From contig NZ_JAJEWK010000003.1 of the NCBI RefSeq assembly GCF_020687745.1, positions 62,001 to 126,000 of the forward strand: a stretch of DNA of 64,000 nt, written 5' to 3'. A program made the position numbers and the translations under genes. Below are positions 15,563 through 51,645 of the stretch, piece after piece. How positions within the stretch are numbered: the first letter of the stretch is position 1; every line of letters begins with the position of its first letter. This DNA comes from Chryseobacterium sp. MFBS3-17. Lineage in GTDB: Bacteria; Bacteroidota; Bacteroidia; Flavobacteriales; Weeksellaceae. The notes beneath the pieces are model-generated. The model was given only the letters and a program-made list of their open reading frames with translations. It was not told the DNA's origin and did no database searches.

Positions 15563-16495
15563 TTACTTACCAAGTTTCTTCTGACAGATAATATCTTTCT
15601 TCGTGATTTGAATTTCATGACTCTTGCTCCTGAAAAATTTACCATTTTCAGCGTGGATCACTTTTTCAGTTTCCTGGCCGGTAAATCCCAGGCTGCGTAT
15701 TATTTCACGAATCAGGAACGGATCTGATGCCAGCAGTCTTTGTTTGTCAAGGATGAATTTTTCACCCAGATTTTCTTTCAGGATTTCCCCGTACAGTGCA
15801 CGCACATTTCTTTGAATAAAGTCATCGGCTTCATGCAGATTCCGGATAGAGTGGGAGAACTGCACCAGGAAATCCGGCACAATTTCCTGCAGTACAGGAA
15901 CGGCTTTATTCCGGAATGCATTGCGCAGATAGTCGTTTTTCTGATTACTCAGATCTTCGCGAAACTGGATGTTTTCCGTTTCCGCATAAGCATAAATTTC
16001 TTTCTTTGAAGAAGAAAGCAGCGGTCTCAGAATATGGTTGTCCTGCGCCGGGATGCCGCTGAGTCCCGCAATACCCGAGCCTCTGGAAAGATTGATCAAA
16101 AATGTTTCCAGTTCATCATTCAGGTGATGCGCAGTCACCAGAAAATCAATCCCTTCTGCTGCCATAATCTTCCGGAAAAAATCATACCGGAGATGGCGTG
16201 CCCATAGCTGTATGGACTTTCCGGCTGGTTTTTCCTCATCAGATACGGTGTACAGGTGAAACGGGATCTGATTTAGGCTGCAAAAATCTTCTGTAAGTTG
16301 CCGGTCTGCCTCAGAATCATCATCCCGCATACGGTAGTTGATGTGTGCTGCCTGAAAATGAAGTCCGCACTTCAAAAATAAATCGGCCAGAACCATAGAA
16401 TCCGGACCACCGCTCACCGCCAGCAGGAATTTTTGCTTTTGAAAATCAGGACAGAGATTTTGGATTTTTTCTCTGAAAGTCACTGTGCTAAGCAT
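15563..16495 (-). CDS. tilS: tRNA(Ile)-lysidine synthase
   Basis: 310 aa. PP-loop SGGPDSMVL near residue 29 and the downstream HINYRMRDDDSEAD motif place it in TilS, which converts C34 of tRNA-Ile(CAU) to lysidine using ATP. It is short: many bacterial TilS have 420-470 aa with a C-terminal tRNA-binding domain. This one ends after the catalytic domain plus a partial second domain, like the compact TilS of some thermophiles. A -7-like TATATTTG (16527-16534, minus) lies upstream. Confidence 0.9.
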   Translation of the reverse strand: MLSTVTFREKIQNLCPDFQKQKFLLAVSGGPDSMVLADLFLKCGLHFQAAHINYRMRDDDSEADRQLTEDFCSLNQIPFHLYTVSDEEKPAGKSIQLWARHLRYDFFRKIMAAEGIDFLVTAHHLNDELETFLINLSRGSGIAGLSGIPAQDNHILRPLLSSSKKEIYAYAETENIQFREDLSNQKNDYLRNAFRNKAVPVLQEIVPDFLVQFSHSIRNLHEADDFIQRNVRALYGEILKENLGEKFILDKQRLLASDPFLIREIIRSLGFTGQETEKVIHAENGKFFRSKSHEIQITKKDIICQKKLGK

Positions 16496-47819: not shown

Positions 47820-47903
47820 GAATTTTCTTTGTCTGGGAGTATGTTGCACGATAGCTATGTTCAGCTTTTCGGTAATAATACAAGAATTTACTTCCGTACA
47901 ACC

Positions 47904-48765
47904 ATGTTCTCAATAAAAGGAACAATACTCAAGAGACTAAGCCTACTAAAGTTCATTTATGTAGGCTTATTGTTTTGTAGTAACTTTCTTTTTGCTCAGC
48001 AATTTCAATTAAAAATAGATTCTGATTATCTAAAAAATTATCAAATTGAAATTGACAAACAAGGAAAGAGCAGCTTATTTTTGTCCAATAATGGTTTTGT
48101 TAATATTTTTAATGAAGATTTTCTAGGGGCAAAGAATATTATTATTGTTGATTTAGATAAGCAATTCACTTATCGATTGTATAACGATGAACTGAAAATA
48201 AAAGATTCTGTTCTTTATTTTACTTCAGGAAAACTTATTGAAGAAGTCGTTATTTCTTCAAATAAGAATAGTATAGAATTAGGAATTCCACACAAAGGAG
48301 CTACTGCTAAGCTTTATACAATGCCTGATATTATTTCTGTCATTGAGATTCCGAAGACAATTTTAGACGAAGGAAAAAAATGTAAAATTGAGATATAGCT
48401 TTGTCGGTGGCAAACATCCAGCATATAAATTTAAGATAGCCAGGCAAAATACTACCATTCTGCCACTTTTATATACTTGTGAGTCTGTAGATAGCCAAAA
48501 TCCCAGAAAATTAATTCCTGAAATGGAAGTGAATTATATAGAAGGTGAAAAATATATGGAAGTCGAATTAAGTCACAAAAATTTATTTATTGATGAAAAT
48601 TTCCAAAATATTTATCTGGGATACATTTCTCTGGGTTATGATGTGGTGAGACAGAAAAGAAAAGAAAAAGTTGGAGATATTAAATGTTATCGTGGGAGTA
48701 CACGACATCAGGGTTATAGAGAAGTAGTTCGTAAATGCTCCGTGATGTCACTCATAGTCCAATGA
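47904..48765 (+). pseudogene. Secreted hypothetical protein, split by a one-base frameshift
   Basis: Two adjacent reading frames look like one gene. The first begins at ATG 47904 (signal peptide with FIYVGLLFCSNFLFAQ) and stops at 48398; the second is open from 48367 to a stop at 48765. Removing one A from the seven-A run at 48374-48380 joins them: the first reads ...LDEGKKCKIEI, the joined frame LDEGKNVKLRYSFVGGKH. The product would be about 287 aa. The region is clearly more AT-rich than sdhB before it. Function unknown; possibly a recent pseudogene, or an indel error in the assembly. Confidence 0.65.
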
Positions 48766-50421: not shown

Positions 50422-50440
50422 TAACAGAACAGACAAAATT

Positions 50441-50480
50441 AAAGTCCGCAGGTTGGGAAAACCTGCGGACTTTGTTTTTG
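50441..50480 (+). terminator. Strong terminator after the thioredoxin-fold lipoprotein gene
   Basis: AAAGTCCGCAGGT (50441-50453) pairs with ACCTGCGGACTTT (50461-50473): a 13-bp perfect stem followed by a T-rich run. Confidence 0.85.
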
Positions 50481-50492
50481 CGTAATCTCAAG

Positions 50493-50863
50493 TTATTCGT
50501 TTTTTTGAAGTAGTGTAGCAATTAGTTTATTTTGAGACTCTATGAGATTTGTAATGGCTTGCTGATTATTCATGATGTTTTGAATTAACTCTGGAGAATG
50601 CATGTTGATTGTACCATTGCCAAAATTTACAACTCCATCATTTTGGTCTATCTGATTGTAATTGGAAAATTTATCATCAAGTACTGATTGATATCTACAT
50701 CCAGTTCCTTTGCAATTTTATTTAACAGTACCGAGTTCGGAATGTTTTTGTCAGATTCTATATTAGAAATTGTAGTTTGAGTAGTGTCCAGACGTATGGC
50801 CAGATCTTCCTGTGGCCATTTTTTTCCTTCTCTAAATCGTCTTACTTTCGCTCCTATGCTCAT
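50493..50863 (-). pseudogene. Xre-family HTH regulator, frameshifted before its coiled-coil tail
   Basis: From ATG 50863 an Xre HTH domain is encoded (MSIGAKVRRFREGKKWPQ, TTQTTISNIESDKNIPN), ending early at 50648 after VDINQYLMINF. On the same strand another frame continues to a stop at 50493 and reads DDKFSNYNQIDQND, GVVNFGNGTINMHSPELIQ, NIMNNQQAITNLIESQNKL, a typical tail of this regulator family. One missing base in the TACTTGATGAT region (about 50690) explains both. The intact protein would be about 123 aa. Either real inactivation, a truncated but functional 71-aa regulator, or a sequence error. Confidence 0.7.
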
Positions 50864-50905
50864 ATATAAGTATTTTTAAGCTTATTTTACGATACCATAA
50901 ACAGA

Positions 50906-51016
50906 ATGGGGCTTTCCAATAATATTATTACTTTGCAGGAAGTTGACCAAAATGAGAGTGTATCACCAATTAAACAAAATCCGGATGGAGTAACAACAGC
51001 GGTTCCATGCCCATAA
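50906..51016 (+). pseudogene. Short open fragment, possibly the 3' remnant of a lost gene
   Basis: An open frame between 50882 and 51016 encodes LFYDTINRMGLSNN, then IITLQEVDQNESVSPIKQ and NPDGVTTAVPCP. An internal ATG at 50906 would give 36 aa. It looks like coding sequence without a proper beginning. It precedes the DUF6705-like gene by 10 nt. It may be a tail of a deleted upstream gene or a tiny real gene. Confidence 0.3.
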
Positions 51017-51026
51017 AAATAATCTT

Positions 51027-51614
51027 ATGAAAAACATTTTAATAAAAATCATTCCATTTATATTTATTTTTACTGGAATAATATCGTGTAGATCTCAACA
51101 GATTGTCCCTCTTAATACAGGATGGTATACATCTTCTACAGGTACTTATTTTAAAGATATCAATAATGAATTAGATCAATTTGTCGGAACGTGGACGGCG
51201 AATTATGCAAACAATAATACTATTACTTTAATTATTACTAAAGAATTACAAAAGCAGTTTCAAGATATTGACAAAGTTTTTTATAGAGATATGTTAAGGG
51301 TTCGTTATCAAGTGATAGCTGGCGGTTTAATTGTTCACTCAACCCTGAATAATAACTTTACTCTCAATAAAGATTATGAATTTTTAAGTTTATTTACCAA
51401 GCCCGCAAACAATGAAGTTATTTTAATGCAAAATGGCGGCAGATGCTCGGTAGGCTTAGGGACAGTGTATTTCAAAAAAATAAATACGAATCAGTTTCAA
51501 TGGAATTATCGGGTGCAGCCTGCAACAATAAATTCAGAATCTTGCCCACCTCCATATGATAATGATAAAGTGTTTCTCCCTACCGTAGAAAACCTCATTT
51601 TCACCAAACAATAA
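51027..51614 (+). CDS. DUF6705-like lipoprotein
   Basis: 195 aa. Signal MKNILIKIIPFIFIFTGIISC with a lipobox IISC, then PLNTGWYTSSTGTYFKDINNELDQFVGTW, the opening pattern of the DUF6705-type proteins common in Chryseobacterium relatives, followed by alternating beta strands (TITLIITKELQKQF, FYRDMLRVRYQV). The gene is AT-rich compared with rlmD downstream, which suggests acquisition or rapid evolution. Function unknown. A terminator follows. Confidence 0.65.
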   Translation: MKNILIKIIPFIFIFTGIISCRSQQIVPLNTGWYTSSTGTYFKDINNELDQFVGTWTANYANNNTITLIITKELQKQFQDIDKVFYRDMLRVRYQVIAGGLIVHSTLNNNFTLNKDYEFLSLFTKPANNEVILMQNGGRCSVGLGTVYFKKINTNQFQWNYRVQPATINSESCPPPYDNDKVFLPTVENLIFTKQ

Positions 51615-51620
51615 CAAAAT

Positions 51621-51645
51621 TTCCTGCTTTTCAGCAGGATTTTTT
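51621..51645 (+). terminator. Terminator after the DUF6705-like gene
   Basis: TCCTGCT and AGCAGGA form a 7-bp stem (51622-51628/51633-51639) followed by six T. Confidence 0.7.

Follow-up and report, generated by a model that had tools for sequence, protein, structure and literature searches.

What is a helix-turn-helix (HTH) protein of 71 aa when the bases that follow it on the same strand read, in another frame, as the tail that its relatives carry? This question is raised by a locus in a 64,000-nucleotide stretch of DNA from Chryseobacterium sp. MFBS3-17, the whole of which is called the window here. A sequence-only reading of this DNA had proposed that the HTH frame ends early, that one missing base separates it from the tail frame, and that either the tail has really been lost or the sequence is in error. 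Our analyses favour, with a probability of about 0.87, that the locus is what remains of a small, wrecked module made of a regulator, a lipoprotein and a DUF6705 protein, in which one base was lost at the junction of the head and the tail of the regulator, now decaying as a pseudogene. The features of the locus, in window coordinates, are the following.

50440-50474, both strands: terminator-like hairpin in the gap that separates the regulator from the upstream thioredoxin-like gene
50493-50678, minus strand: displaced tail of the regulator in the other frame, an Asn/Gln-rich linker and a C-terminal helix, with its stop at 50493-50495
50648-50863, minus strand: HTH (Xre/Cro-CI) head, the 71-aa frame with its stop; residues 1-60 are homologous to intact relatives, the last 11 are out of frame or at the break
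50679-50683, minus strand: break interval, with net one base fewer than the intact relatives aligned to it
50866-50879, no strand: left arm of a palindromic operator, matching its own recognition-helix class at 12 of 14 bases; the spacer and the right arm are missing
50879-51016, plus strand: remnant of a divergent lipoprotein gene, consisting of the final 45 codons with their stop and continuous with the operator arm (from tblastn and shuffles)
51027-51614, plus strand: DUF6705 protein of 195 aa, apparently intact, with a signal peptide judged by eye (PF20448, E 4.7e-12)
51622-51639, both strands: terminator-like hairpin after the DUF6705 gene

A regulator divided between two frames

The head belongs to the Xre/Cro-CI family, as it exceeds the curated cut-offs of both Pfam HTH_19 (PF12844; E 1.9e-12, 47.3 bits against 30.2) and HTH_3 (PF01381; E 4.7e-11, 43 bits against 23), and its recognition helix in the window reads TTQTTISN. 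Within this family the intact relatives differ in having an additional Asn/Gln-rich linker and, at the C-terminus, a helix of about 30 residues; in the window both are out of frame. There the displaced tail occupies 61 codons at 50496-50678 of the minus strand and contains GVVNFGNGTINMH and LIESQNKL. The relatives read INQLFDDKF... across this point, and the alignment places the break between Q60 and the DDKF motif, with a shift equal to one lost base; both the early end of the HTH frame and the single missing base that had been proposed are thus borne out. The interval obtained, 50679-50683, lies slightly off the earlier estimate of about 50690, and the restored length of 123 aa that had been predicted is about right, with 60 head residues and 61 tail residues flanking the break.

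Proteins that have head and tail in one frame are referred to here as the helical-tailed HTH family of the Chryseobacterium family, a grouping made in this analysis; in the window copy the two parts stand in two frames. The tail was matched in 70 of 320 genomes of the Chryseobacterium family at E <= 0.001, with 101 places listed. Among the best 93 of these, which were examined after leaving out the 8 lowest-scoring, 81 were intact, seven carried an in-frame stop, three a frameshift (one in G163 and two in this genome, those of the window and of C3), one was N-terminally short and one lay at a contig edge. Homologues that bridge both frames are therefore the common condition (81 of the 93 places), and none of the 81 intact copies ends naturally at 71 aa, a length which, according to the sequence-only reading, would have argued against a displaced tail. 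Both pieces are held in one open frame in 33 of the 45 loci with a tblastn match, some of which are overlapping loci of one place, giving 26 distinct proteins; a cruder sorting that ignores in-frame stops classed 88 of 94 loci as intact-like, one place being counted twice. In the own genus, represented by four genomes, only the genome of the window matched the regulator at the thresholds used. The reading frame of the window's regulator is disrupted with respect to its intact homologues, as is characteristic of a pseudogene. The 71-aa protein would be best annotated as a pseudogene fragment, and any product of this gene would be the 71-aa head without the tail.

The conservation of both parts was compared with that of the intact copies. 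The window copy is changed at one of 32 columns of the head that are at least 90% conserved, at seven of 23 in the tail and at one in the junction, while each of the 26 intact copies is changed at six conserved columns at most in total, fewer than the window. This excess of tail changes may fit a relaxed selection on an untranslated tail, weak evidence as intact tails also vary faster than heads (L024 changes 6 of 26, L009 4 of 24). The 61 tail codons have no stop among them, which would mean that the break arose recently or that some constraint acts on the tail.

The model of an intact relative of the regulator (mean pLDDT 69, pTM 0.30) was used to look for known systems. In the relative at L041 the helix spans residues 95-124, with block-mean pLDDT values of 62, 89, 91 and 78, and the linker (residues 64-93) is below 50. 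Foldseek named SinR, CylR2 and the 434 repressor, whose likeness is restricted to the HTH fold of the head and is weak (best E 0.05; no match at E <= 0.001). The regulator may also share with them repression at a palindrome beside the start of its own gene.

A truncated operator and the end of a lipoprotein gene

In the clade of regulators with the IESDK helix, the start codon is directly preceded by a palindrome whose two arms of 14 nt flank a spacer of 7 nt (14-7-14). It was found in 25 of 27 clade copies, with at least 11 of 14 bases pairing and the spacer CAAAAAT, and is absent from the intact clade copies L031 and L142; the 27 copies were picked by the helix pattern IESD[KQ], which missed at least one bearer (L127). 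A looser scan over 92 places of all clades gave the CAAAAAT palindrome in 26, and on shuffled sequence the same scan found 13 of 14 bases paired in about 0.1% of cases and 12 in 1%. The sequence of the arm follows that of the recognition helix. Copies with TTQTTISN have the left arm A[TA]AAGAATTTTTAT (nine of nine), those with VAQSTISS have ATC[AG]ATATTTTG[TG]T (six of six), and an arm starting ATTA is present in 10 of the 12 copies with VTQ[SG]TISN, the other two being without palindrome. Operator type and helix type thus agree without exception among the 25 palindrome-bearing copies, in three types, which has to be taken as a pattern and not as independent events because the copies are related.

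In the window only the left arm of this 14-7-14 palindrome with the CAAAAAT spacer is present. The surviving arm fits best the TTQT type, that of its own regulator (12 of 14 bases, against 10 or fewer for the other types), and at 50879 it passes directly into lipoprotein codons. When genomes were scanned with up to 3 mismatches, exactly one TTQT-type site appeared in each of the five genomes chosen for an intact regulator of the same class; none was found in the genome of the window or in its three sisters, and a backward control pattern had no match in any of the nine genomes scanned. The regulator looks dedicated to its own promoter region, as judged from these sites. With one site per bearer genome and none in the genome of the window, the window's regulator has therefore lost its operator and its target.

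The codons that follow the arm indicate what this target probably was. The stretch 50879-51013 reads SLFYDTINRMGLSNNIITLQEVDQNESVSPIKQNPDGVTTAVPCP and has matches at the ends of two lipoproteins, those of L068 (tblastn E 3.4e-12) and L069 (E 4.1e-10). Compared with 200 shuffles, the remnant scored z 18 to 22.5 with the lipoproteins of L043, L068 and L069 and z 9 to 12 with those of L041, L039, L042 and the genome's own C7 copy; its alignment with the lipoproteins of L038, L044 and the own C4 copy did not rise above the 200 shuffles. A search across the family with 32 remnant residues returned 14 matches outside the own genome at E <= 0.001, of which 13 fall in open frames of 432-532 codons. 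Six matches from this search, in some cases weak (E 7e-7 to 0.14), are placed divergently to a regulator and about 1.6-2 kb from it (G237, G047, G021, G085, G227 and G163). The 36-aa ORF at 50906-51016 would then be best explained as the surviving end of a lipoprotein gene that was deleted, rather than as a small gene.

Intact copies show what is missing. A divergent ORF starts within 450 nt in 70 of the 81, with a lipobox-like motif in 40 of these 70 by a simple pattern; the other 11 have no such start within 450 nt, in part on account of contig ends. Some of the other divergent partners resemble, by eye, T9SS-type or small exported proteins. At L038, L039, L041, L042, L043, L044, L068 and L069 the divergent gene codes for a lipoprotein of 440-522 aa (its ORF is split near the start in L043) and is followed by one to three DUF6705-like genes, and the gene order of the intact modules is regulator, lipoprotein, DUF6705. 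In the window, the place of the whole divergent gene is taken by the 45-codon remnant, followed by the DUF6705 gene, whose product shares 39% identity with that of L039 and 44% with one of L068 and matched nothing in Pfam besides PF20448 at E <= 0.1. A word search found no paper naming DUF6705 in the literature collection that was covered.

Other parts of the same genome hold related genes. A broken regulator lies divergent to an intact gene for a 463-aa lipoprotein, followed by four DUF6705-like genes as judged by eye, at the own C4 copy (L065, 2344-2686 and 2843-6915). At C7 (L066, 2122-4294), an apparently split lipoprotein of the same type is followed by a DUF6705-like gene, with a 71-aa HTH protein on the divergent side. 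C3 (L067, 2687-3090) carries a second copy of the window's regulator, without a palindrome upstream, and beside it stands a 55-aa signal-peptide ORF (L002, 1798-1965) that looks truncated.

Mutation, sequence error or a functional short product

If the frameshift were a sequencing or assembly error, the genome would encode an intact regulator of about 121-123 aa. Only one base is involved and the tail frame has no stop codon, as would be expected from such an error, and the sequence-only reading had set it beside a real loss as an alternative. The break, however, lies outside any long homopolymer, and we looked for frameshifts in the background by taking 80 kb of the sister genome G003 and comparing 70 of its ORFs, each of 100 aa or more, with the window: none was found in the 48 matching genes (at least 45% identity, 16,856 residues), seven of which were flagged as multi-frame or short. 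Two of the seven were translated, one being TilS-like without its C-terminal part and the other sulfurtransferase-like and intact; the other five, judged from the layout of the hits only, correspond to repeats, tandem paralogues or the window edge. In the reverse comparison 46 window ORFs were matched and the one flagged is a repeat protein. An indel-prone assembly was considered and rejected on the lack of frameshifts among the 48 conserved genes, with the five flagged ORFs taken from layout. The related regulators of the genome point the same way. The C3 copy, read by eye against relatives, is short of about 7 nt within its HTH; the C4 regulator has lost about ten codons with a change of frame. 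Among 50 places with regulators of the wider kind, the open frames have 122-170 codons in 47, and 51, 52 and 114 in C4, G191 and G192. The genome of the window has four such regulators, of which three are broken (C9, that of the window, C3 and C4), in two cases by a deletion that exceeds the length usual for base-calling errors; the fourth, C2, is intact (131 aa) and stands beside a long divergent lipoprotein gene. The multi-base deletions in C3 and C4 are unlikely to be errors, and therefore a real mutation is likely at C9 too; moreover, whatever the frame, the target gene is missing, as is half of the operator. Between the two alternatives, a real loss of the tail is better supported by the absence of frameshifts in the 48 genes and by the deletions in these two regulators. 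The frameshift is probably a real mutation, as read from these comparisons, and we consider an error unlikely.

In two further readings the 71-aa head would be a genuine product. It could be a functional tail-less regulator of other promoters, or act on paralogues as a dominant-negative partner; there are small HTH regulators that stand alone, and the head is well conserved (one of 32 conserved columns changed). Its single change, S17P, hits a column at least 90% conserved among the 26 intact copies, there is no genomic site within 3 mismatches of the class operator, and C3, the closest paralogue that the genome has, is likewise broken, all of which make this a quite improbable function. The alternative of a programmed -1 frameshift, yielding both the 71-aa head and a full-length protein, finds a slippery-type heptamer (A AAT TTT, 50666-50672, in the head frame) just 5΄ of the stop of the head, where a -1 slip would enter the tail frame. 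Yet AAATTT lies on the Lys-Phe codons of DDKF, which L009 has too in its single frame, and 81 of the 93 places need no shift. A folded stretch of 92 nt of the downstream RNA is no better than its shuffles (z 0.75; 157 of 200 as good or better). With the heptamer present and neither a stimulatory structure nor a conserved frame arrangement found, the candidate was rejected, and we regard programmed frameshifting as extremely improbable.

The intact module and its probable loss

We propose that the regulator of the intact module binds to the palindrome and represses transcription in both directions, and that the tail helix, as the model of the L041 relative suggests, may join two DNA-bound units about two helical turns apart. 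At the locus of the window a single deletion apparently brought the lipoprotein gene's last 45 codons up against the left arm of the palindrome, and would have taken the rest of the operator together with the start and about nine tenths of the divergent gene. The frameshift, whether it came before or after the deletion, may have been tolerated because the target was lost, and the regulator, made useless, would decay as a pseudogene.

What was the lost target? The C-terminal domain of the intact lipoproteins has an HxH...S..D pattern with variable spacing: HNHT..SPxD, with 8 residues between H and S, is present in L039, L041 and L043, L038 has HSH with 10, and in L042 an A replaces the S. The usual H-to-S spacing of the JAMM/JAB motif is 7. 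When a model of this domain was compared with solved structures by VIA-align, JAMM/MPN chains filled most of the top rows, with a best Z of 6.7, a value that has to be read with the tool's own warning that a Z below 8 may mean only a common arrangement; Foldseek returned no match for the same model at E <= 0.001. In Pfam none of six intact lipoproteins had a match above the cut-off, Prok-JAB being reached in one of them with E 0.035. Only the C-terminal domain was read because the N-terminal half was modelled poorly (mean pLDDT 55).

In the Bacteroidetes, a JAB toxin is known to be paired with an immunity partner that is a lipoprotein, in the Tox-JAB-1/Imm65 polymorphic toxin pairs (PMC3482391). 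Similarly, the intact relatives of the lost target have a JAMM/JAB-like C-terminal domain (VIA-align Z up to 6.7), and small exported proteins come after them, some of which show a lipobox by eye, the feature described for Imm65. The intact relatives differ from the toxins so described in being lipoproteins themselves, with no RHS repeats in the sequences read. The likeness of the lost target to Tox-JAB-1/Imm65 may serve as a lead, and the toxin role is putative.

The intact form may represent an undescribed module of the Chryseobacterium family, with a one-site regulator, a palindromic operator that tracks the recognition helix (TTQTTISN, VTQ[SG]TISN, VAQSTISS), a JAMM-like lipoprotein and DUF6705 partners, whose regulator, when lost, may recurrently release or kill modules. 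This is a tentative proposal, to which we give slightly less than even odds. Its last part is suggested because, in the genome of the window, one regulator is intact (C2) and three are broken (C9, C3 and C4). The broken regulator is ordinary gene decay, and the intact module and the pairing of regulator and operator are more interesting; this pairing is directly testable.

The site in sister genomes

The distance between the thioredoxin-like gene and a gene for a 470-aa methyltransferase is about 1.9 kb in G003, 9.8 kb in G002 and 13.8 kb in G001. The stretches between these genes in the three sisters match a neighbouring 102-aa protein of the window, and had no match to the head, the tail, the remnant or DUF6705 (E <= 0.01); the regulator was likewise unmatched in G001-G003 at the thresholds used. 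With contents that differ among the sisters, the site is therefore variable, and either the module was acquired at this place or the sisters have lost it. A plasmid origin was also considered and was discarded, as 1,201 bases searched gave no match in the plasmid collection.

In G002 and G001 (L082 and L083) the site is occupied by other genes over about 10 and 14 kb, which include, by eye, a repeated 'MCKSFRSAPTFAHRSADYIR' ORF and a transposase-like ORF of 511-533 aa. Two further places in the window are worth recording. The TilS-like protein at 15581-16495 lacks about 120 C-terminal residues compared with that of G003. Finally, two overlapping ORFs in different frames, of 189 and 125 aa, lie at 47829-48765; they have no Pfam match at E <= 0.1, are not listed at the same place in G003, and are possibly another broken accessory gene.
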